DNA from: Pararhizobium sp. A13
GTDB lineage: Bacteria > Pseudomonadota > Alphaproteobacteria > Rhizobiales > Rhizobiaceae
Direction of reading: 5' to 3'
Assembly: GCF_040126305.1 (NCBI RefSeq)
Contig: NZ_CP149510.1
Span: 3,731,001-3,795,000 of the forward strand
Length of the DNA stretch: 64,000 nucleotides
Part shown: piece after piece, positions 52,452 to 63,607 of the stretch
How the letters are laid out: every line of letters starts with the position of its first letter
How positions within the stretch are numbered: position 1 is the stretch's first letter
Notes under the pieces: model-generated
The model's database searches: none
What the model was told of the DNA's origin: nothing
What the model saw: the letters and a program-made list of their open reading frames with translations, nothing else
Made by a program: the position numbers and the translations under genes

Positions 52452-52804
52452 AAAATGCGCGATCTCCCCCATTTGGGGGAGTAAAGACGGGCAAAACCTG
52501 TTAAAAATAAGGGGTGTCTGGAGCCTGTGATCATACCGCAGCGCAGCCCGGCGTTTTCAGCACGAAAACATTCACCGGACGGCCTTATCGCCCGGCCGAT
52601 GGAGTATTGCGCATACTTTCGGGAGATGGAAAACGGGGCCGCGGTGCGTAGCTTGGAAGCACCGCGGCCCCAATCGTTTCAGGGCTTCTCTCCACATCCC
52701 TTCGCTTCATGACCTCATCATCTTTTGTCATTAAAAAACATTGCCGCAATGCTCTATCTGTCGGAAGAAAGTAAGTTCAATTCCGACAGACGAGGAATGC
52801 CGTG
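52452..52804. other. Intergenic region with two perfect hairpins
   Basis: About 350 bases without a supported gene. A 7-bp hairpin CTCCCCC-ATTT-GGGGGAG lies at 52464-52481, just after the L,D-transpeptidase stop. A 13-bp perfect hairpin lies at 52635-52671. A 61-codon frame covers the second hairpin but has no family features. Confidence 0.5.
52635..52671. terminator. Very strong GC-rich hairpin, possible terminator
   Basis: GGGGCCGCGGTGC (52635-52647) and GCACCGCGGCCCC (52659-52671) are perfect 13-bp complements around an 11-base loop. On the minus strand GTTTTCC follows; on the plus strand AATCGTTTC. It may end transcription from either side, or be the end of a small RNA. No minus-strand gene adjoins it. 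Confidence 0.5.
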
Positions 52805-54094
52805 ATGGCCGCCGAACGCTCCCTTCCCAACCTCTGGCATGCCACGGCGCCTGCGGCTCCCGAGAGCCGCCCGCTTGCAAGCGACGTCATCGTCGATGTC
52901 GCGGTGATCGGCGGCGGTTTCACCGGACTTTCGGCGGCACTTCACCTTGCCGAAAAGGGCGTGAAAGTCGCCGTCGCAGAGGCGAAGATGATCGGCTTCG
53001 GCGGCTCCGGCCGCAATGTCGGCCTCGTCAATGCCGGCATGTGGACAAAACCCGACGACCTGATCGCCACGCTCGGCGTTAATGCCGGTAACCGACTTCT
53101 GACCGAACTCGGCGATGGGCCGTCCGTCGTCTACGATCTGGTCGCCAAGCACCAGATCCAATGCGAGGCCGTCCGCAACGGCACGCTGCACATGGCCGTC
53201 GGAACCGAGGGCCTGAAGGACATCCAAGACCGGGAAGCACAGTGGAAGAAATTCGGCGCTCCCGTCGAAGTGCTGTCCGCCGAGCGCACCAGGGCGCTAA
53301 CCGGTGCGGAAGGATTCGCTGGTGCCCTGCTCGACCGTCGCGCCGGTACGATCCAGCCGCTTGCCTATGCCCGCGGCCTTGCCCGAGCAGCTCTCGAAGC
53401 CGGCGCCGAGATCTACACCGAGACGCCGCTTCTTGCCGCCGAACGCAACGGCGACACCTGGAGGTTGACGATGCCGGGCGGCTCGATCACGGCCAAAAGC
53501 GTGATCCTTGCCACCAATGCCTATGGCAAGCTCATCGAGCGCACGCCTTGGTCGGCCCATACGGAAGAACTGACCATCCTGCCCTTTTTCCAGTTTGCCA
53601 CCCAACCGCTCAGCGACAATGTCGCCCGAAGCATCCTGCAGGAACGCCAGGGCTGCTGGGATACCGGCCTCGTGATGACGTCCTTCCGCATGGACCAGCA
53701 GAACCGGATGATTTTCGGCAGCGTCGGTCGGCTGGACGCAGTTGCGAAGGGAACGCACCGGGCTTTCGTCAAGCGCTCGCTGCGCAAGCTTTTCCCGATG
53801 ATCGGCGACGTCCGGTTCGAATACTGGTGGGACGGTCGCATCGGCATGACCACCAACAACCTGCCGCAGATGCACGTGATGGCGCCGAACGTCTTTTCGA
53901 TCAGCGGCTACAACGGCCGCGGCATCGCGCCGGGCACGGTCTTCGGCCGGGCACTCGCCAACCATGTCATGGGCGCGCCGAACGCCTTGCCGCTTGCCGA
54001 AACGCCCTTGACGCCCGATCCATGGCGCAGCCTCAAGTCGGTCTTCTATCACGCTGGCGCGCAAGCCAAGCACTTCATCGACCGTCGCTTCTGA
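52805..54094 (+). CDS. FAD-dependent oxidoreductase, OrdL/PuuB-like
   Basis: This 429-residue DAO-family enzyme is similar in layout to gamma-glutamylputrescine oxidase PuuB. The N-terminal leader SLPNLWHATAPAAPESRPL, the FAD motif VIGGGFTGLSAALHLAEKG and GFGGSGRNVGLVNAGMW (the GxSGRNGG-type motif of OrdL) are diagnostic. Further on come SVILATNAYG and RIGMTTNNLPQMHVMAPNVFSISGYNGRGIAPG. It probably oxidises an amine or amino acid. The start ATG has GAGGA upstream; a GTG directly precedes it. It lies a few kilobases from a glutamine-synthetase-like operon that could supply glutamylated amines. Confidence 0.88.
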   Translation: MAAERSLPNLWHATAPAAPESRPLASDVIVDVAVIGGGFTGLSAALHLAEKGVKVAVAEAKMIGFGGSGRNVGLVNAGMWTKPDDLIATLGVNAGNRLLTELGDGPSVVYDLVAKHQIQCEAVRNGTLHMAVGTEGLKDIQDREAQWKKFGAPVEVLSAERTRALTGAEGFAGALLDRRAGTIQPLAYARGLARAALEAGAEIYTETPLLAAERNGDTWRLTMPGGSITAKSVILATNAYGKLIERTPWSAHTEELTILPFFQFATQPLSDNVARSILQERQGCWDTGLVMTSFRMDQQNRMIFGSVGRLDAVAKGTHRAFVKRSLRKLFPMIGDVRFEYWWDGRIGMTTNNLPQMHVMAPNVFSISGYNGRGIAPGTVFGRALANHVMGAPNALPLAETPLTPDPWRSLKSVFYHAGAQAKHFIDRRF

Positions 54095-54156: not shown

Positions 54157-54849
54157 TCAGGCCGCACGGCGCGCCGGATCGACCAGCCGAAGCGGCACCA
54201 GCTTGCGGACTTCGTCGCCAAAGGCGCGGGCATTTTCGCGGGCCTTGTCGAGATTGCTGACTCGGCTCGCGTCCATCGTCTGCAAGGTGCCACCACAGTC
54301 GAAGATGTCGCGGAAAGCGGCACGTTCGATGATCGGCGTATCGAGGACCGGAACGGCGCGCTCGGTGAGCAACTGCTTCACCACCTGTAGCGCCCGAGTC
54401 GTCACCAGTGAGTTGACCCGGGTCAGAACGACTGAGTGATTGATGCGGATGCCAGCTTTTTCTTGCAGGTGACAGAGCAGCTCGAGCACTTGGGCGCCAC
54501 CCTTGGCATCCATGGCACAGCCCTGGATCGGGATCATGACATGATCGGAAAGGCCGATCGCCGTTGCCATCAGCGTGTTGCGGGCGCCGGCGAGATCGAT
54601 GATGAAATAGTCGGTCTTGGCCCTGTTTTCGCTGATATGCGTCTGGATAGATGCCATCGTCACATTCGAGATGACGTCGATATTGGGGACTTCTCCCGAA
54701 ATTTCATGCCAGTGGGAGATCCAGTGCTGCGGATCGGCATCGAGAATGGTGACGCGTGCACCACAGCGTGCGAGTTCCGTCGCGAGGATAAGCGCGGCGG
54801 TCGTCTTGCCCGCGCCGCCCTTGGTGTTTGCAAATGTGATAACTGGCAT
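54157..54849 (-). CDS. ParA/MinD-family ATPase, VirC1-like
   Basis: This 230-residue deviant Walker ATPase begins MPVITFANTKGGAGKTTAAL with the KGGAGKTT motif (residues 9-16). Walker B is in YFIIDLAGARN and the switch region is in VMIPIQGCAMDAKGGAQ. It resembles the short ParA proteins represented by Agrobacterium VirC1, but no partner parB, plasmid replication gene or conjugation gene is nearby. An intact paralogue would have lain directly upstream (55.1-55.8 kb) but is broken. Its target is unknown; it may position a protein complex or DNA region. Confidence 0.88.
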   Translation of the reverse strand: MPVITFANTKGGAGKTTAALILATELARCGARVTILDADPQHWISHWHEISGEVPNIDVISNVTMASIQTHISENRAKTDYFIIDLAGARNTLMATAIGLSDHVMIPIQGCAMDAKGGAQVLELLCHLQEKAGIRINHSVVLTRVNSLVTTRALQVVKQLLTERAVPVLDTPIIERAAFRDIFDCGGTLQTMDASRVSNLDKARENARAFGDEVRKLVPLRLVDPARRAA

Positions 54850-55058
54850 TGCTGTCCCTGTCTGAAAACGTCCGAGCCCCGGCATGGCTCCCGCAAAGCC
54901 CAAGGCCCATCGCGCTCCGGTTAATCAAACCTTTCAGATCGTGGTTAAAAAAATCTAAACACGCCCCTCGCTAGAATTAACGATGCTGGCCCAAACAGGT
55001 GTGAACGTGTGGCGCAACGAGGCGAAACTCACGATAAAACTTTCCAGATTTCGAGAGA

Positions 55059-55798
55059 TCAGGGATCAGCGTGTATCGCGCTGCAATCGAAGGACAGGGC
55101 GGCGCGCGCCACCAGCGAATGTCCGGCAGGGTTTTCCGACTGCGGGATACGTTCCGGCGCCTTATAGCAGATACGCGCAAGCGAACCGCTCGATTGCAGG
55201 TGCGGCTGCCCGCGCACCAAATGCAGGACTTCCGTCGCAAGCCCTTGCATGTTTCGCTGCGCCTTGGCGAGGTTGGTGAGCTTGGCTTCATCGATCGTAT
55301 AGAGCGTTCCACCATGTTCGAACATGTCGCGGTAAGCGCTACGTTCGATGATGGGCGTGTCGAGCAGCGCCACATTGCGCCGGACAAGAAGCGCCTTGAC
55401 GCTGCGGATGGCGCGTGTCGTCACAAAGGAGCTGACGCGGGTCAGGACCACGGCATGGTTGATGGGGCTACGCGCGTTGCTTTCCACCTGCCCTATGATG
55501 TCGAGCACGTGCGCTGCGCCCTGCGCGTCCATGGCGCAGCCCTGAACAGGAATGAGCATGAGGTCGGAAAGACCGGCAGCCAGGGCAATCAGCGCGTCGC
55601 GGCAAATGTCACACCGGTCACAACGGATATACTGTCGACCGCGCCGGGCAACCCGTGCCACTTGGCCGCAAATGCAAGAGGGTCGCAGTCGAAAATGACG
55701 ACCTTCTCGCCCTTTTGCGCAAACTCCATGGCCAGAAGCAATGCTACCGTCGTCTTGCCGGATCCTCCCTTGGCATTCGCAATTGAAATTACAGCCAT
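55059..55798 (-). pseudogene. Second ParA-like gene, broken by internal deletion and frameshift
   Basis: The N-terminal part (MAVISIANAKGGSGKTTVALLLAMEF) has an intact Walker A and runs to VVTGVTFAATR, where its frame stops at about 55589. The rest continues in another frame as DALIALAAGLSDLMLIPVQGCAMDAQG through DTPIIERSAYRDMFEHGGTLYTI. Compared with the intact paralogue at 54.2 kb, about 23 codons are missing at the junction, including the whole Walker B segment (FIIDLAG in the paralogue). The size is not a multiple of three, so the frame shifts. The C-terminal tail is also unlike the paralogue. Confidence 0.85.
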
Positions 55799-55912
55799 CT
55801 CGTTCCCGTCGGCCTCCTTAGGCTGCCATCACCCCTTCGAGTAAAGGCGCTCCGTGCCCCAAGCCTTGCAAAACAGCGTTAACGAAAGACAAACAATCAT
55901 TAGCCGGGAAAT

Positions 55913-55946
55913 AAAAAACGGAGCGATCGCAGGGACCGGCTCCGTT
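55913..55946 (-). terminator. Rho-independent terminator after the alcohol dehydrogenase operon
   Basis: AACGGAGC (55917-55924) pairs with GCTCCGTT (55939-55946) around a 14-base loop; on the minus strand six T follow. It lies 45 bases past the alcohol dehydrogenase stop and ends the five-gene operon. Confidence 0.88.
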
Positions 55947-55991
55947 GAATGTTGTGGCTGAAAGCGCTGACGCCTCTAGCCATGCTTCATG

Positions 55992-57137
55992 TCAAATGCA
56001 GTCGCGGAAAAGCTGCTTGGCGGCATCAAGCGTCAGTTCGACCGGATTGCCGCCCGCCGTCGGATCGACGATCGCCATCGCGGCCATTTCGTCGATGCGG
56101 TCCGTGCCGACGCCGAGCGCCGACAGCTTGTCCGGAACACCGAGTTCTTCCCGCAGCGTCAGCACGTAGTCATAGAAGCCGTCAAAACCGCCGGAAATGC
56201 CGAGATAGGCGGCGGCCATGCCGATCTTGTCTTCAACGGCCGGGCGGTTGAAGCGCAGCACCGGCGGCATGACGATGGCATTGGTCATGCCGTGGTGGGT
56301 GTTGTAGATCGCGCCGACCGGATGCGACAGCGAGTGGATGGCACCAAGGCCCTTCTGGAAGGCGACAGCGCCCATGGCGGCCGCACTCATCATATGGGCG
56401 CGGGCCTCGATATCCGTGCCGTCCTTATGGGCGCGCGGCAGGTATTCCTTGACCAAGCGCAGGCCTTCGAGCGCGATACCGGCCGACATCGGGTGATAGA
56501 ACGGCGAGGAATAGGCTTCCAGGCAATGGGCGAAGGCGTCCATGCCGGTGCCGGCGGTGATCACCCTCGGCATGCCGACCGTCAGTTCCGGATCGCAGAT
56601 CGTCACAGCCGGCAGGAACTTCGGATGGAAGATCACCTTCTTCGTGTGCGTCTGTGAATTGGTGATGACCGAGGCGCGGCCGACTTCGGAGCCGGTACCG
56701 GCGGTCGTCGGCACAGCGATGATCGGCGCGATACCCTCGACGCTGGCGCGCGTCCACCAGTCGCCGATATCCTCGAAGTCCCAGACCGGCCGGGTCTGTC
56801 CGGCCATGAAGGCGACGCACTTGCCGAGATCAAGCCCCGAGCCGCCGCCAAAGGCGATCACGCCGTCATGGCCGCCGTCCTTGAACGCCTTGACGCCGGC
56901 CCCAAGGTTGACGTCTGTTGGGTTGGAATCGACATCGCTAAACAGCGCCCGGCCGAGCCCGGCAGCGTCGAGAATGTCGAGCGCATTCTGGGTGATCTGC
57001 ATGGGCGCAAGGCCACGGTCGGTGACCAAAAGCGGCTTCTTGATGCCAAGCGCCTTGCAGTGATCGGCAAGTTCCTTGATCCGCCCCGCCCCGAACTTGA
57101 TAGCGGTCGGATAGCTCCAGTTGGCTGTGATGGTCAT
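55992..57137 (-). CDS. Iron-containing alcohol dehydrogenase
   Basis: This 381-residue group III alcohol dehydrogenase oxidises an alcohol to an aldehyde with NAD(P). The NAD-binding GGGSGLDLGK and VPTTAGTGSEVGRASVI motifs are present. Metal ligands are expected in GTGMDAFAHCLEAYSS (Asp/His), GAIHSLSHPVGAIYNTHHGMTNAIV (His pair). It is the last gene of the operon, overlapping the aldehyde dehydrogenase gene by four bases. This pairs two consecutive oxidation steps: alcohol to aldehyde to acid. The substrate is not defined by sequence. Confidence 0.94.
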   Translation of the reverse strand: MTITANWSYPTAIKFGAGRIKELADHCKALGIKKPLLVTDRGLAPMQITQNALDILDAAGLGRALFSDVDSNPTDVNLGAGVKAFKDGGHDGVIAFGGGSGLDLGKCVAFMAGQTRPVWDFEDIGDWWTRASVEGIAPIIAVPTTAGTGSEVGRASVITNSQTHTKKVIFHPKFLPAVTICDPELTVGMPRVITAGTGMDAFAHCLEAYSSPFYHPMSAGIALEGLRLVKEYLPRAHKDGTDIEARAHMMSAAAMGAVAFQKGLGAIHSLSHPVGAIYNTHHGMTNAIVMPPVLRFNRPAVEDKIGMAAAYLGISGGFDGFYDYVLTLREELGVPDKLSALGVGTDRIDEMAAMAIVDPTAGGNPVELTLDAAKQLFRDCI

Positions 57138-58519
57138 GCTGTTACTTTCTTCAGATGGTAGGATTTCGGGCGGGTCAGGTTCTGGAAACCGATGACGGAA
57201 AGCGAGCCGCCGCGGCCCGTTTCCTTGACGCCGGTCCAGCAGAGCGCCGGATCGAGATAATCGGCGCGGTTCATGAAGACGGTGCCGGTTTCAAGGTCGT
57301 TGCCGATACGAGCAGCGCGTTCGGCGTCCTTCGTCCAAAGCGAGGCGGTCAAGCCGTACTTGCAATCGTTCATCAGGGCGAGTGCCTCGGCATCGTTCTT
57401 CACCTTCATGATGCCGACGACCGGGCCGAAGCTTTCTTCCGTCATCACCTTCATGGAGTGATCGACATCGACAAGCACCTGCGGCGCAAGATAGGCGCCG
57501 CCGTCATCCTGCGGGAACAGCTTCGGATCGACCAGCGCCCTGGCGCCCTTGGCAACGGCCTCGGCCGTCTGGGCGCGGACTTCTGCGGCAAACCGCTTGT
57601 GCGCCATCGGGCCAAGCGAGGTTTCCTGCTCGAGCGGATTGCCGAGCTTGTAGGCGGAGGCGAAGGCAACAGCCTTTTCGACGAAGGCGTCATAGAGGTT
57701 TTCGTTCACATAGATGCGCTCGATGCCGCAGCAGCACTGCCCGGAATTGAACATCGCGCCGTCCATCAGCGTATCGACGGCAGCGTCGAGATCGGCGTCT
57801 TCCATCACATAGCCCGGATCCTTGCCACCAAGTTCGAGGCCGAGCCCGGTAAAGGTGCCGGCAGCAGCCCGCTCGATCGACCGGCCACCCTCGACCGAGC
57901 CGGTGAAATTGACGAAATCGAAGCTCTTGGCCGCGATCAGCGCCGAGGTCGTGGCATGGTCGAGGAAGATGTTCTGGAACACGTCCTCCGGGACGCCCGC
58001 CTCGACAAAGGCGTGCACCATGCGCTCGCCAACGAGGATCGTCTGGCTGGCATGCTTGAGCATGACCGCATTGCCCGCCATCAGCGCCGGCGCGACGGTG
58101 TTGATTGCCGTCATATAGGGGTAGTTCCACGGCGCGATCACGAAGACGACACCGTGCGCGACACGCTCGATGCGACGCTCGAAGCTGGTGCTGTCCTCGA
58201 CGACGATCGGCGCAAGCGCGTCCGCAGCGATGGAGGCGACATAGTTGGAACGCTCGTTGAAGCCGCGGAATTCGCCGCCGTAGCGCACTGGCCGCCCCAT
58301 CTGCCAGGCGAGTTCCGGCACGACCTCGTCGACCATTTCATTGAGCCGTGCGACACCGGCCAGCACCAGCTTGACGCGGTGTTCGACCGGGCGCTTGGCC
58401 CAGTCTTTCTGCGCCGCGCGGGCGCGCGCCACAGCGGCCGAGGCGGTGGCGGCGTCAGCAGCGGGTCGTACCGCATAAACCTCCCCGTTCACCGGGGATA
58501 TGCATTGGATCATGGTCAT
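57134..58519 (-). CDS. NAD(P)-dependent aldehyde dehydrogenase
   Basis: This 461-residue ALDH has VVFVIAPWNYPYMTAINTVAPALMAGNAVMLKHA (NAD binding, with the conserved Asn), FVNFTGSVEGGRSI, the general base Glu in GLGLELGGKDPGYVMEDAD and the nucleophilic Cys in FNSGQCCCGIERIYV. The C-terminal EESFGPVVGIM is also standard. It is translationally coupled to the alcohol dehydrogenase downstream and lies 90 bases after a glutamine-synthetase-like gene. This suggests that it oxidises a glutamylated or free amino aldehyde. Confidence 0.94.
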   Translation of the reverse strand: MTMIQCISPVNGEVYAVRPAADAATASAAVARARAAQKDWAKRPVEHRVKLVLAGVARLNEMVDEVVPELAWQMGRPVRYGGEFRGFNERSNYVASIAADALAPIVVEDSTSFERRIERVAHGVVFVIAPWNYPYMTAINTVAPALMAGNAVMLKHASQTILVGERMVHAFVEAGVPEDVFQNIFLDHATTSALIAAKSFDFVNFTGSVEGGRSIERAAAGTFTGLGLELGGKDPGYVMEDADLDAAVDTLMDGAMFNSGQCCCGIERIYVNENLYDAFVEKAVAFASAYKLGNPLEQETSLGPMAHKRFAAEVRAQTAEAVAKGARALVDPKLFPQDDGGAYLAPQVLVDVDHSMKVMTEESFGPVVGIMKVKNDAEALALMNDCKYGLTASLWTKDAERAARIGNDLETGTVFMNRADYLDPALCWTGVKETGRGGSLSVIGFQNLTRPKSYHLKKVTA

Positions 58520-58609
58520 GATCGTTTTCCTGTTCTGTCGTCAAAAATTATGATCCGGTACCGCCCTTTCGGGCATCTACCGGATCGAAGCCGATTCTGA
58601 GCGATGGCG

Positions 58610-59980
58610 TTACGCCCGTTCGAATCCCCGCGCAACTTCCCAATCCGTCACGCGGCGGTCGTATTCCTCCTGCTCCCATTCGGCGGCGCGGGTGTAATGC
58701 TCGATGACATCCTCGCCGAACGCGTCGAGCAGCATCTTCGAGGAGTTCATCGCCTGCGTCGCGTCGCGCAGCGTTCCGGGGATTTCGCGGATGTTCTTGC
58801 CGCCATAGGCGTCGCCGACGAACGGCGCTTCCAGCTCCAGCTTGCCCTCGATACCGGCAATGCCGGCGGCGATCAGGGCTGCCATGGCAAGATAGGGATT
58901 GAGATCGGAGCCGCCGACGCGGCATTCGATGCGGATCGCCTTGGTACCCTCGCCGCAAAGCCGGTATCCGGCGGTGCGGTTGTCCTTGCTCCAGACGGCC
59001 TTGGTCGGCGCGAAGGTTCCGGCCATGAAGCGCTTGTAGGAATTGATGTAGGGCGCGAGGAAATAGGTGATCTCGCTCGCATGCGTCAGAAGGCCGGCGA
59101 CGTAGTGGCGCATCGTTTCCGACATGCCGTATTTGGCTTCCTTGTCGAAGAACTGCGGCGTCTTGCCATCCAGGCTCCAGAGCGACTGGTGGATGTGCGA
59201 CGACGAGCCCGCGGCATGATAATTCCACTTGGCGAGGAAAGTGATCGCCTTGCCGCGCGACCAGGCGATTTCCTTGCAGCCGTTCTTGATGATCGCGTGC
59301 CGGTCGGCCATGGTCAGGGCATCGGCGTAGCGGACGTTGATTTCCTCCTGGCCGGCGGACGCCTCGCCCTTGGAGTTTTCAACCGGAATGCCGGCGCCCT
59401 GCAGACCGTTGCGGATCGCCCGCATCACATCCTCTTCCTTGGTCGTCTGGAAGATGTGGTAGTCCTCATTGTAGCCGCTGACGAGCTTCAGGTCGCGGTA
59501 ACCGCTTTCGCGCGCATCGTCATAGCTCTGGTCGAACAGGAAGAATTCGAGTTCCGTCGCCATATAGGCCTTCAGCCCCATCGCCTCCAGTCGGGCGATC
59601 TGGCGTTTGAGGATGGCGCGCGGCGAATGCGGCACTTCCTTGTGGGTGTGATGGTCGAGCATGTCGCAGAGAACCAGCGCCGTGCCTTCCAGCCAGGGAA
59701 TGCGGCGAAGCGTCGAAAGGTCCGGCTTCATCGTATAGTCGCCGTAGCCCGCTTCCCAACTGGTCGACTTGTAGCCGGACACCGTGTCCATCTCCATGTC
59801 GGTCGCCAGCAGGTAGTTGCAGCTATGGGTCTCTTCCCAGGCGCTGTCGACGAAGAACTGCGCGTGAAAACGCTTGCCCATCAAGCGTCCCTGCATGTCC
59901 ACCTGGCAGGCCAGGACCGTATCGATGCGCCCTTCGGCGACATCCTTCTTCAATTCTTCAAACGAGTAGCTCGCGCTCAT
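58610..59980 (-). CDS. Glutamine synthetase-like gamma-glutamyl ligase (PuuA/GlnA4-type)
   Basis: This 456-residue protein has the GS catalytic fold: ATELEFFLFDQSYDDARESGYRDL (metal Glu), NSKGEASAGQEEINVRYADAL, ITFLAKWNYHAAGSSSHIHQSL and NRTAGYRLCGEGTKAIRIECRVGGSDLNPYLAMAALIAAG with the conserved ATP and ammonia-site region. It lacks the N-terminal signature and the adenylylation loop of housekeeping GlnA and resembles PuuA, IpuC and GlnA4-type ligases, which join Glu to amines or amino alcohols. Its place between a permease and two dehydrogenases supports a catabolic role. The start MSASYSFEELKK was chosen over an upstream frame extension. Confidence 0.9.
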   Translation of the reverse strand: MSASYSFEELKKDVAEGRIDTVLACQVDMQGRLMGKRFHAQFFVDSAWEETHSCNYLLATDMEMDTVSGYKSTSWEAGYGDYTMKPDLSTLRRIPWLEGTALVLCDMLDHHTHKEVPHSPRAILKRQIARLEAMGLKAYMATELEFFLFDQSYDDARESGYRDLKLVSGYNEDYHIFQTTKEEDVMRAIRNGLQGAGIPVENSKGEASAGQEEINVRYADALTMADRHAIIKNGCKEIAWSRGKAITFLAKWNYHAAGSSSHIHQSLWSLDGKTPQFFDKEAKYGMSETMRHYVAGLLTHASEITYFLAPYINSYKRFMAGTFAPTKAVWSKDNRTAGYRLCGEGTKAIRIECRVGGSDLNPYLAMAALIAAGIAGIEGKLELEAPFVGDAYGGKNIREIPGTLRDATQAMNSSKMLLDAFGEDVIEHYTRAAEWEQEEYDRRVTDWEVARGFERA

Positions 59981-60071
59981 ATCTACATCCAGTGTTGGGC
60001 GCCCGGCGCCGTCTGATTGGCAGAACAGACCGGCGGACAAGCCGCCGGCCCAGGTCTTGATCTGTCAACGA

Positions 60072-61637
60072 TCAGGCTTCGCCCACTGCCTTTTCGGCAG
60101 CGAGGATGTCGGCCTTGCGCTTTTCGATCATGTCGCCGATCGGCGGCCCTTGGAAGCGCTTGGCTTCAAAGGCGAACCAGATGCCGACTGCCAGCACGAT
60201 GAAGCCGAGCGTGACGGCAAACACCTTGTCATTCGGGGGCTGGATGGCGATGTAAATGATGATCAACATGCCGATGGCGGCAAGCACCGAGACCAGCTTG
60301 TAAACGCCGGCACCGAGATCCCAGGGACCCGCTGCAGGCCATTTTGACGTGCCGAAGGCGAAGATGCCGAGCACGATCGGGAAAACGAAGGACAGGAATA
60401 GGAAGATCAGGGTGGCGTTGACCACCGTCACGTAGAGGCTGGCCTCGCCGACCGAGATGAACAGCGCACCCCAGACGAAAAGCACTTCGAGAATACCAGC
60501 CGTCCAGATCGCCGTAACCGGCGTGCGGAACTTCGGGCTGACCGAGGACAGCGCCTTGGAACCAACCGGCAGACCCTTGTCACGCGAGAAAGCGAAGATC
60601 ATGCGCGATGCCGACGTGACCGTGGCAAGGCCGCAGAGGAACTGCGAGATGAAGATCGCGATGAACAGGACCGTGACCAGCCATGCAGGCATGATCGTGT
60701 TGACCGTGTAGAAGAACACGTTCCAGCCCTGCTTTGCACCTTCCGCCATATCCGGGATGGCGATGACGAAGGCGCTCAGCATGATCCAGCCGGCCAGCGA
60801 CGACCAGACGACTGACGAAACGATAGAGCGCGGAACCGAATTGGCCGCCTTTTTCGTTTCTTCAGACGTGTGCGCGGACGCGTCATAGCCAGTGATGGTG
60901 TAGATCGGCAGCAGAAGACCGAGGCCGAAAACGTACCACATGCTCTCGGACTGCGGCCAGACATTGCCGCCGATCTCGCCCGAGTTGTTGGTAAAGGTCC
61001 AAAGACGGCTGATTTCCCAAGTGGGTGCGAAATACAGGCAGGCGATCGTCAGAACAGCTGCGGTCACCAGAATGAGAGAGCCTGAAAAATCGGTCAGCTT
61101 GGCTGTGAGCCTGATACCGAAATGGTTGATCAGCACCTGCACGAGCGTAAAGCCCGCAACGAGCAGCACCTGCGTTCCCGGCGAAACCAGGCCATCCTCG
61201 CCGACGAGACCGAGCTGCGCGCCGAAGGTGCCACCGAGAAACAGCGCCGTGCCGATGTTGATCGCGCCCAGAACGGTGATCAGACCGAGCAGGTTGAGCC
61301 ATGCCGTCAGCCAGCCCGTGAAGCGGTTTCCCAGAATGGACGACCAATGATACAGACCACCGGCCGTCGGATAGGCCGAGGCGATCTGAGCCATGCCCAA
61401 CGCAAAGAAGCCGGAGATGATGCACCCGACCGGCCAGCCGATCCCGATTGCAGCGCCGCCGACACCGGATGTTGCCTGCGCCAATGAGTTGATGCCACCC
61501 GACAAAATGCAGATGATCGAGAATGAAATTGCGAAATTCGAGAACGAGCTCATGCTCCGTTCAAGCTCTTGGGCATAGCCCATGGAATGCAGCACGCCTA
61601 CGTCGTGCTTTTTGTCTGTATCTGTATAGTCTGACAT
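60072..61637 (-). CDS. APC-superfamily amino acid/amine permease
   Basis: This is a 521-residue inner membrane transporter with 12-14 hydrophobic segments. The start has SMSSFSNFAISFSIICILSGGINSLAQATSGVGGAAIGIGWPVG and later AQIASAYPTAGGLYHWSSILG, typical of the GABA/choline-type ACT branch of APC carriers. The loop SAHTSEETKKAANSVPRSIVSSV is also characteristic. It is probably the uptake system for the substrate of the ligase gene that follows 91 bases downstream in the same operon. Substrates known for relatives are GABA, polyamines, choline and ethanolamine. Confidence 0.92.
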   Translation of the reverse strand: MSDYTDTDKKHDVGVLHSMGYAQELERSMSSFSNFAISFSIICILSGGINSLAQATSGVGGAAIGIGWPVGCIISGFFALGMAQIASAYPTAGGLYHWSSILGNRFTGWLTAWLNLLGLITVLGAINIGTALFLGGTFGAQLGLVGEDGLVSPGTQVLLVAGFTLVQVLINHFGIRLTAKLTDFSGSLILVTAAVLTIACLYFAPTWEISRLWTFTNNSGEIGGNVWPQSESMWYVFGLGLLLPIYTITGYDASAHTSEETKKAANSVPRSIVSSVVWSSLAGWIMLSAFVIAIPDMAEGAKQGWNVFFYTVNTIMPAWLVTVLFIAIFISQFLCGLATVTSASRMIFAFSRDKGLPVGSKALSSVSPKFRTPVTAIWTAGILEVLFVWGALFISVGEASLYVTVVNATLIFLFLSFVFPIVLGIFAFGTSKWPAAGPWDLGAGVYKLVSVLAAIGMLIIIYIAIQPPNDKVFAVTLGFIVLAVGIWFAFEAKRFQGPPIGDMIEKRKADILAAEKAVGEA

Positions 61638-61749
61638 CTTTTTCCCCTGTATCGACCAGCCTCCGGCGGTATTGCCGGTCGGCTGAAGTGCCAGTGTCCA
61701 TGGAAGCCCATGGACCAGTCTCCGCGGACATGCCGCTCCCCAGGTCTTT

Positions 61750-62559
61750 TTATTGCGACAGTGCCTGAAGGCTTTCGCCCAGCAGGCCTGTCAGATAATC
61801 GGCCATGACCTTTTGACCGACTTCATCCCGAACGAGATCGTTGCGGATCTCGATCATTACGTTGAGCAGGCCATTCTTCAAGCCATGCTCGATCAATGTA
61901 TGCGTCACGCCATCGGCCGGCCCATAGGGCTCGTTGCGGCGAACATCGTAGCGTTTCGTTTTTTCGGCCGCCGCCAGCATACAGGCGGCCAGCCTTTTGT
62001 CCGTGTCATGCAGAATACCGACTTCAACGTCGCGCTGCCTGCCGTGATAAACGGGCGTGAAACTGTGCATCGTCACAAGCACCGGCGGCCGACCCTCGGT
62101 CTTTCGCGTCGAAATGAAACCCGACAGTGCATCACGAAACGGCACGTAAAGCGCCTCGGTCCTCGCCCGGCGCTCCGCTGCTGAGATCGCAGCATTGCCG
62201 GGTATCTCGAAGACTTCGCTGACGGGCGGCATGGCGGCTTCCGCTTCCGGCGGGCGATTGCAATCATACACCAGGCGAGAAAACCGCTGGTAGATCAGCG
62301 CAGCATCAAGGCTTTTCACCAGGAGTTGAGATACCGCAAGGGCGCCCGGGTCCCAGGCGATGTGGCTGGAAAGGGCCTCGGGCGACATTCCGAGCGTTCC
62401 CATTTTCTCTGGAAGACGGCGCGACGCATGCTCGCAGATCAAGAGAACCGAGCTCAATGCCTCCGGATTTTCCACTGCGACCGGCGCACCATCCGCCTCT
62501 GTCAAAAGCCCCGTCAAATGCGATTTCCTTTTCAGTTGCCTGCCAGAACTGAAAGCCAT
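61750..62559 (-). CDS. N-formylglutamate amidohydrolase-family hydrolase
   Basis: This 269-residue hydrolase is of the NFGA (HutG-like) family. It has VLLICEHASRRLPEKMG near the N-terminus (metal/active-site His), HIAWDPGALAVSQLLVK, RLVYDCNRPP, VLVTMHSFTPVYHG with the conserved His, and LNVMIEIRNDLV with the Glu/Arg pair. No histidine-utilisation genes are near, so it more likely removes glutamate from a glutamyl amide, or acts on a different N-acyl amino acid. It is the first gene of the operon and is divergent from the RpiR regulator across 169 bases. Confidence 0.88.
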   Translation of the reverse strand: MAFSSGRQLKRKSHLTGLLTEADGAPVAVENPEALSSVLLICEHASRRLPEKMGTLGMSPEALSSHIAWDPGALAVSQLLVKSLDAALIYQRFSRLVYDCNRPPEAEAAMPPVSEVFEIPGNAAISAAERRARTEALYVPFRDALSGFISTRKTEGRPPVLVTMHSFTPVYHGRQRDVEVGILHDTDKRLAACMLAAAEKTKRYDVRRNEPYGPADGVTHTLIEHGLKNGLLNVMIEIRNDLVRDEVGQKVMADYLTGLLGESLQALSQ

Positions 62560-62669
62560 ACCCCGGAAAAAGGGCCCGCAAGCATTCGTTAATGAAAAGA
62601 ATTCTTCACGATTTTACCCATGTCAATCGAAAACTGAAACGATCTCTTCAAAAAGGCCATTGACTCGAA

Positions 62670-62698
62670 TTGTGACAGCGATGTTTACTCTGTCACAA
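62670..62698. promoter_or_regulatory. Palindromic operator between the operon and the RpiR gene
   Basis: TTGTGACAG (62670-62678) and CTGTCACAA (62690-62698) are perfect 9-bp inverted repeats separated by 11 bases. They lie between the divergent regulator and catabolic operon. A possible -35 TTGACT for the regulator occurs at 62660-62665. It is a strong candidate for the RpiR protein's own operator. Confidence 0.65.
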
Positions 62699-62728
62699 AG
62701 CTGGCAAAGACCAGCCAGGGGATCGATT

Positions 62729-63607
62729 TTGACAAGCTCTGAAGGCACTGTGACGGTGTCGGATGTGATCAACGCCCATTTCTCTGTGCTGACGCGCGCG
62801 GAGAAGCAGTTGGCGGCGACGCTTCTCGACAATTACCCGGTTTCCGGACTCGGCAGCATCACGACTGTTGCCGAGAATGCAGGCGTGTCGACGCCGACCG
62901 TTGCCCGCATGGTCCAGAAGATCGGCTTCCGTGGTTTTCCGGATTTCCAGCAACGGCTCCACCAGGAACTCGAAGCGACGATCTCCAATCCGATCAGCAA
63001 ACACGACCGCTGGGCGGCGAATGCGCCGGGCACGCATATCCTCAATCGTTTCGCCGACGCAACGATGAACAACATGCGCGCCACCCTCGCCCAGCTTGAA
63101 ACGGCTGAGTTCGATGGCGCCGCGAGCCTGATCGCCGACCGCAAGCGCAATATCTATCTGGTTGGCGGCCGCATCACCCGGGCGCTTGCCGATTATTTCT
63201 TTACCCATTTGCAAGTCATTCGGTCCGGCGTCACCCAGATCGCGGCCAATTCCAGCTCCTGGCCGCATTACGTGCTCGACATGAAAAAGGGCGACGTCCT
63301 GATCATGTTCGATATCCGCCGTTACGAGCAGGAGATGGAAACACTGGCGCGCATCGCCCGCGAGCGCGGCGTCGAAATCATTCTCTTCACCGATCAGTGG
63401 AGCTCTCCGATTGCCAAGTCGGCTCGGCGTGTTTTCCGCATCCAGATCGAAGCACCGTCTGCCTGGGACAGTTCGGTCGTCATTCTTTTTGCCGTCGAGG
63501 CGCTGATCGAGGCCGTGCAGAGTTCCATCTGGGACGAGACGCGCGACCGGATGAAAACACTCGAGGGCCTGTTCGATTCAACACGGCTTTTTCGCAAGCC
63601 GCTTTAA
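62729..63607 (+). CDS. MurR/RpiR-family transcriptional regulator
   Basis: This 292-residue regulator has an N-terminal HTH_6 domain (VINAHFSVLTRAEKQLAATLLDNYPVSGLGSITTVAENAGVSTPTVARMVQKIGFRGFPDF) and a C-terminal SIS domain that usually senses a phosphorylated sugar or similar ligand (NIYLVGGRITRALADYFFTHL, DVLIMFDIRRYEQEMETLARIARERGVEIILFTD). I start at TTG 62729, preceded by AGGGGA; the upstream ATG (62682) lies inside the palindromic operator and has no ribosome site. It probably controls the divergent operon and perhaps the ABC genes downstream. Confidence 0.9.
   Translation: MTSSEGTVTVSDVINAHFSVLTRAEKQLAATLLDNYPVSGLGSITTVAENAGVSTPTVARMVQKIGFRGFPDFQQRLHQELEATISNPISKHDRWAANAPGTHILNRFADATMNNMRATLAQLETAEFDGAASLIADRKRNIYLVGGRITRALADYFFTHLQVIRSGVTQIAANSSSWPHYVLDMKKGDVLIMFDIRRYEQEMETLARIARERGVEIILFTDQWSSPIAKSARRVFRIQIEAPSAWDSSVVILFAVEALIEAVQSSIWDETRDRMKTLEGLFDSTRLFRKPL

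Follow-up and report, generated by a model that had tools for sequence, protein, structure and literature searches.

A probable gamma-glutamyl ethanolamine utilisation operon in Pararhizobium sp. A13, with an APC permease in a gene place of changing transporter type

Five minus-strand genes and a divergently oriented RpiR-type regulator gene, situated in a 64,000-nucleotide stretch of the Pararhizobium sp. A13 genome (contig NZ_CP149510.1; hereafter the window), very probably constitute an ethanolamine utilisation operon which needs no B12 enzyme, is controlled by its local regulator and has glycine and glutamate as its likely products. Ethanolamine, which many bacteria use as a source of nitrogen, originates in membrane lipids. 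The pathway as such is already known, and the new part is small: the branch to which the importer, an APC permease, belongs, and the switch of importer type at a single gene place.

An open-frame scan gave the gene order amidohydrolase, APC permease, glutamine synthetase (GS)-like ligase, aldehyde dehydrogenase (ALDH) and iron-containing alcohol dehydrogenase (ADH). Pfam cut-offs were used for all five proteins, and all five exceeded them (FGase, PF05013; AA_permease_2; Gln-synt_C; Aldedh; Fe-ADH); TIGRFAM-type models were scored against their own bit cut-offs. Intergenic gaps along the operon are 112, 91 and 90 bp, and the ALDH and ADH genes share 4 bp. These frames and domains bear out the five-gene operon, in the order claimed by a preliminary description of this DNA, and the terminator it placed at the operon's end is borne out by a hairpin and then a U run. 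The hairpin sits in a 91-nt stretch that folded better than 200 of 200 shuffles (z = −3.23); a consensus scan for terminator-like sites in the region gave 9 against a shuffle mean of 9.9, so there is no excess of such sites as a class.

Sequence comparisons suggest that the ligase is probably an ethanolamine gamma-glutamylase and not a glutamine synthetase. Its best matches in the Protein Data Bank (PDB) were 5dm3 (E = 1.3e-204) and 11zs (2.1e-202), with the next at 5.7e-52. We take 5dm3 to be the Chromohalobacter salexigens ligase Csal_0679, whose locus number is adjacent to Csal_0678, and the window ligase would then be orthologous to the C. salexigens-type ethanolamine gamma-glutamylase. 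Csal_0679 has been annotated as a putative glutamine synthetase (PMC5299690). The window ligase is also 61% identical to that of a Paracoccus plasmid operon with the order RpiR-hydrolase-TRAP-ligase-ALDH-ADH. In a 16-sequence alignment, residues E143, E145, E206, E213, H262, R317, R340, E352 and R354 were invariant; assigned by motifs, these nine appear to correspond to the metal, glutamate and ATP sites of type I glutamine synthetase (GSI). We aligned the ligase with a GS of the same genome (L004, canonical-GlnA-like by its motifs) and found F323 at the position of the flap glutamate, E327 of GSI. The ammonium-site motif, an FDGSSI stretch that includes D50, was missing. Streptomyces GlnA4 is likewise described as having F331 at the E327 position and as not keeping D50 (PMC6529630). 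The ligase scored below the cut-offs of both the glutamine synthetase model (TIGR00653; 257 versus 429 bits) and the gamma-glutamylputrescine (GGPut) synthetase model (201 versus 650 bits), and three GS-family genes are found elsewhere in the genome. An AlphaFold model of the ligase had a mean predicted local distance difference test score of 36 and was not used.

The strongest evidence for ethanolamine as the substrate comes from the transporters of close relatives. Among the best 80 of at least 591 Rhizobiaceae loci, ranked by ligase similarity, 78 have the divergent, adjacent RpiR gene and, on the other strand, the window's order of amidohydrolase, ligase, ALDH and ADH; the remaining two end at contig edges. 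The gene place occupied by the permease in the window holds a window-type APC permease in 61 of these loci, a TRAP transporter in 12 and an Eat-type permease in 6, and is empty in 1 (one APC and one TRAP locus end at a contig edge). In a TRAP locus whose ligase is 93% identical to that of the window (L013), the TRAP binding protein matched structure 4UAB with an E value of 8.3e-145, the next structure following at 4e-15; the binding protein of the Paracoccus plasmid operon matched 4UAB at 1.4e-169. 4UAB is the ethanolamine complex of the TRAP protein Csal_0678 (PMC12410723). Two of the Eat-type occupants scored 364 and 374 bits against TIGR00908, “ethanolamine permease” (cut-off 382). The enzymes remain constant while the slot holds transporters of two ethanolamine-linked families, and it is chiefly on this ground that we regard ethanolamine as the likely substrate. 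Transporter type changes here among close relatives, and for this reason we did not take a TRAP importer as defining the pathway.

The preliminary description had proposed looking for these families together in related genomes, and the association extends beyond the closest relatives. In a sample of 121 genomes of the order, drawn regardless of the operon, 60 carried the ligase at E ≤ 1e-120. At the 59 loci other than the window's own, all four enzymes lie within ~7 kb in 34; taken singly, ADH was seen at 46, ALDH at 43, the hydrolase at 41 and RpiR at 39, and the transporters comprised 32 TRAP binding proteins, 6 window-type APC permeases (excluding a seventh match, L186, at 23% identity) and 2 Eat-type permeases. 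Some of these loci end at contig edges. Ruegeria conchae has the four enzymes beside an EamA transporter, with no RpiR or TRAP genes adjacent. The protein search gave at least 8000 ligase relatives, which were not used for distribution.

The amidohydrolase had a sole PDB sequence match at E ≤ 0.1, 2odf, “Hypothetical protein Atu2144” (E = 3.9e-96). Atu2144 has been assigned to Agrobacterium tumefaciens (PMC6506827). A PDB search with the ALDH gave no match at 1e-80. In Aminobacter aminovorans and Paracoccus pantotrophus, plasmid loci (L089, L090) show an RpiR-hydrolase-ligase-ALDH-ADH block followed by bhc genes, which belong to the beta-hydroxyaspartate cycle. The transporter slot is empty in both blocks; an IS5 element lies between RpiR and the hydrolase on the P. 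pantotrophus plasmid, and the regulator gene bhcR precedes the bhc genes on the Aminobacter plasmid. The cycle consumes glycine and glyoxylate, and the bhc genes beside the enzymes on both plasmids would suit glycine as the end product. These plasmids were typed as conjugative and mobilizable, and an ethanolamine cassette joined to bhc could therefore form a transferable unit leading from ethanolamine to central metabolism.

In the mechanism we propose, the permease would bring in ethanolamine, and the ligase, to judge by its close homology, would use ATP to couple the amino group of ethanolamine to the gamma-carboxyl of glutamate. The ADH and then the ALDH would convert the alcohol to the aldehyde and the aldehyde to the acid, gamma-glutamylglycine, which the PF05013 hydrolase would cleave to glycine and glutamate; this cleavage would thereby recycle the glutamate carrier, the aldehyde having stayed tagged. 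Conservation suggests that the RpiR regulator probably binds ahead of the hydrolase gene, at two TGAA-N8-TTCA sites. The findings fit the route suggested in the preliminary description (uptake, attachment of glutamate, oxidation of alcohol to aldehyde to acid, and release of glutamate by an NFGA-type hydrolase), and there is good support for its underlying idea that an amino alcohol is gamma-glutamylated.

The further claim that this combination is undescribed does not stand. The four enzymes, in the same order and beside an RpiR gene, have been published for Phaeobacter sp. MED193 (MED193_10021-10056; PMC10132767), where consecutive locus numbers run through RpiR, gamma-glutamylglycine amidohydrolase, the TRAP transporter EtoVWX, ethanolamine gamma-glutamylase, ALDH and ADH. 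In that account, the proteins induced come from one operon and are raised on phosphoethanolamine, EtoX binds ethanolamine with a dissociation constant of 7.9 µM, and reference is made, citing Vetting 2015, to the pathway in C. salexigens and in A. tumefaciens C58. The C. salexigens families listed in Table 2 of PMC9397018 (PF00120, PF00465, PF00171 and PF05013) are the same four found in the window, and we therefore rejected novelty of the five-gene set. Three traits of the pathway are present in the window, namely an orthologous ligase, PF00465, PF00171 and PF05013 in one operon, and an adjacent RpiR gene. The EtoVWX trait of the Phaeobacter-type pathway is absent from the window operon, which has a single APC permease instead; C. 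salexigens, too, differs in having a TRAP binding protein, Csal_0678. In the PDB, two window proteins come closest to 5dm3 (presumably Csal_0679) and 2odf (Atu2144). The APC permease is the only departure from the published operon. More distantly, the operon resembles the GlnA4 pathway of Streptomyces coelicolor (SCO1611-1615; PMC6529630) in its gamma-glutamylethanolamide synthetase, ALDH, dehydrogenase, proposed formylglutamate-type hydrolase and replacement of the flap glutamate by phenylalanine; GlnA4 has been shown biochemically to form gamma-glutamylethanolamide, and the later steps are given there as proposals. According to a figure legend in the same paper, the S. coelicolor cluster differs in its short-chain dehydrogenase, glutamine amidotransferase, regulator EpuRI and other permease.

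The window permease had no match to the Eat model TIGR00908 at E 0.001; its best model was TIGR00907 (2A0304), at 189 bits versus a cut-off of 598. When 61 APC sequences including the window's were compared, a majority of 54 was separated from a minority group of 6, to which the window belongs, with 66% mean identity between the groups, whereas the ligases accompanying the two groups are 86% identical. Two loci (L005 and L006) have ligases 98–99% identical to the window's but permeases only 64–65% identical, and the permease of another (L010) is 96% identical. The simplest reading of this mismatch with ligase identity is that the permease has been exchanged in place. Differential loss from a tandem permease pair is an alternative, because one operon (L218, genome G279) has two such permeases in tandem.

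Across a phylum set of 299 genomes, window-type permeases (E ≤ 1e-80) were found in 16. Twelve of the 15 homologues outside our genome are in operons with ligase, ALDH and ADH, 11 of the 12 being from the window's own family. In one operon (G238) the permease comes last, and the hydrolase and RpiR were not found. Another homologue (G271) overlaps a eutB-eutC pair, both genes confirmed by Pfam, one lies near a distant GS (33%) and an ALDH, and the last (G356) has as its neighbour an ALDH similar to the Deinococcus gamma-aminobutyraldehyde dehydrogenase. A Deinococcus plasmid carries a 48% identical homologue between eutB-eutC and an ALDH named for gamma-aminobutyraldehyde. In stretches of DNA without listed genes, the permease near the ligase is Eat-like (37%) in Embleya and 33% like the window's in Streptomyces. 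A Streptomyces “ethanolamine/amino acid permease,” dissimilar to EutH or Eat, has been proposed (PMC6529630); among the open-licence papers listed, we found no APC ethanolamine importer of the TIGR00907-like branch. Because its homologues adjoin eutBC in two bacteria, despite others that do not, the window permease is probably a further ethanolamine importer, of an APC branch other than that of Eat. We consider it likely, with less assurance than for the operon's function, that it represents a family of non-Eat, TIGR00907-like APC ethanolamine importers that eutBC operons and the gamma-glutamyl route have each taken up. The importer gene of the window operon would then be a plug-in part swapped in place (APC subtypes, Eat-type or TRAP) while regulator and enzymes stay constant.

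Several observations weigh against an ethanolamine operon of this kind. The G356 permease homologue, beside its ALDH of the gamma-aminobutyraldehyde type, showed no ethanolamine gene by the queries used, and in Deinococcus itself the neighbouring ALDH carries that same name. Permease homologues of Caballeronia and Burkholderia (45–47%) had no ethanolamine gene nearby by the queries used, contexts having been checked for two of the four Caballeronia, Burkholderia and Paraburkholderia homologues. On the side of the enzymes, PF05013 was unseen at 18, ALDH at 16 and ADH at 13 of the 59 order-sample loci (contig ends accounting for some), and a few ligase genes in that sample stand alone. Ligases 48–62% identical to the window's occur in other gene settings: no ADH or ALDH was found beside the Paraburkholderia ligase, the Rhizobium CB3171 ligase locus is without ADH, and an Arthrobacter ligase locus carries a PuuD-type hydrolase. 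Finally, this genome has two eutB genes. One (L187, contig C3 of G000) is adjoined by eutC and an Eat-type permease; the other (L188, contig C2) is 31% like the Deinococcus eutB and has a eutC-like stretch at 25%.

EutBC, the ethanolamine ammonia-lyase, is a B12 enzyme; its route shares the probable substrate of the window operon but uses no glutamyl tag, and none of its genes is in the window operon. Since the eutB on contig C3 has eutC and an Eat-type permease alongside, the genome holds a second ethanolamine route, and the window operon could accordingly serve mainly for a different amino alcohol. The same chemistry would then act chiefly on 2-amino-1-propanol (alaninol) or 1-amino-2-propanol, with ethanolamine secondary, and the enzyme set could in principle take other primary amino alcohols. 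A second structure, 4xf5, of a binding protein related to the TRAP version points the same way, as we take it to be a 2-amino-1-propanol complex. We nevertheless judge this unlikely: the Eat-type and 4UAB-type transporters in the slot and the eutBC genes beside two APC homologues favour ethanolamine, the bhc neighbours suit a glycine product, and GlnA4, a more distant relative, has been reported to be ethanolamine-specific (PMC6529630). A single cell may well have two routes for ethanolamine.

A Puu-type route for putrescine or gamma-aminobutyric acid has hardly any claim left. PuuABCD shares with the window operon a glutamyl tag attached by a GS-like ligase, an ALDH and a release of glutamate, and differs in using a FAD oxidase and the class I hydrolase PuuD in place of ADH and PF05013; an alcohol dehydrogenase has no place in it. 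The ligase does match the GGPut synthetase model, but far below its cut-off, and open-frame, Pfam and model scans found neither a PuuB-type FAD oxidase nor a PuuD-type hydrolase in the window operon. A nearby FAD oxidase gene (52802–54094) was considered as a PuuB-like partner and rejected: it lies on the opposite strand, is nearest to AmaA (below cut-off) and is absent beside the R. leguminosarum operon. On these model scores and missing partner genes, the Puu-type route was rejected. A reading of the ligase as a genuine glutamine synthetase, in an operon that is an oddity of nitrogen assimilation, is just as improbable, for although the protein has the PF00120 catalytic domain, its model score and its lost ammonium-site motif and flap glutamate led us to reject it, and the three further GS-family genes also speak against it.

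The divergent regulator gene and its probable operators were omitted from the preliminary description. At least one copy of TGAA-N8-TTCA was found in 76 of 78 RpiR-hydrolase intergenic regions, as compared with 24 of 1560 segments of equal length taken from these loci, and 34 of the 78 hold two copies; because the motif was chosen from the commonest 8-mers of these same regions, and the loci are related by descent, this count is no independent test. A degenerate pattern built from the two window sites had no further exact match in the genome and two one-mismatch matches elsewhere. We predict that TGAA-N8-TTCA is probably the RpiR operator. An inverted repeat over the RpiR start may be the site for a second regulator; TTGTGACA/TGTCACAA occurs in 55 of 79 regions, the window included.

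Table 1. Features of the probable ethanolamine operon and its upstream region (window coordinates).
Feature	Position	Strand	Basis or remark
MurR/RpiR-family regulator (HTH_6 + SIS), divergent	~62681..63607	+	start uncertain: ATG 62681, GTG 62672, TTG 62729
Inverted repeat TGTGACA-N13-TGTCACA over RpiR start	62671..62697	.	partly conserved
Probable RpiR operator 2, 42 bp from operator 1	62635..62650	-	conservation, genome pattern scan
Probable RpiR operator 1, TGAA-N8-TTCA	62593..62608	-	conservation
PF05013 amidohydrolase, probable gamma-glutamylglycine amidohydrolase	61750..62559	-	Pfam, PDB sequence match
APC permease nearest TIGR00907 (2A0304), probable ethanolamine importer	60072..61637	-	model scores, homologue contexts
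GS-like ligase, probable ethanolamine gamma-glutamylase	58610..59980	-	ATG start; TTG at 60040 possible
ALDH, probable oxidation of gamma-glutamyl-aminoacetaldehyde to gamma-glutamylglycine	57134..58519	-	Pfam, model scores, conserved order
Fe-ADH, probable gamma-glutamylethanolamide dehydrogenase	55992..57137	-	Pfam, model scores, conserved order
Intrinsic terminator	55912..55945	-	hairpin, 7 outer pairs, then U run

Downstream of the operon are two adjacent ParA/VirC1-like frames (54157–54903 and 55059–55661, minus strand), of which the latter is matched by the models only beyond position 91 or 105 and resembles a partial copy. A ParA-like gene is near the ADH in 61 of the best 80 loci. The FAD oxidoreductase mentioned above, on the plus strand, is nearest to the AmaA L-pipecolate oxidase (434 bits; cut-off 600), and such an AmaA-like gene occurs near the operon in many relatives, not all.

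A same-strand pair encoding helix-turn-helix (HTH) and PIN-domain proteins, resembling a toxin-antitoxin system, is inserted between the ligase and ALDH genes in 18 of the best 80 loci (L009, L011, L013, L048, L054, L056, L057, L060, L067, L069, L071, L073, L074, L078, L079, L081, L082 and L084), the domains being confirmed by Pfam in two of the 18. In the order sample the PIN family (E ≤ 1e-12) was found in 12 of 121 genomes, 5 of the 12 in the ligase-ALDH slot; the query came from a slot copy, which biases the search toward such copies. PIN identities range from 42 to 97% and are uncorrelated with ligase identity (Spearman 0.02, 153 pairs); ~40 C-terminal residues are nearly fixed and the first half is variable. 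The window operon is without this pair, and the nearest PIN copy in the genome (40%) lies elsewhere.

The operon would offer rhizobia a route for ethanolamine free of B12 enzymes, in which the toxic aldehyde is kept tagged. If our reading of the permease is true, its branch would reveal ethanolamine import in genomes where the gene is now annotated merely as an “amino acid permease.” The exchange of one importer type for another at a fixed gene place is a clear case of modular evolution in a catabolic operon.

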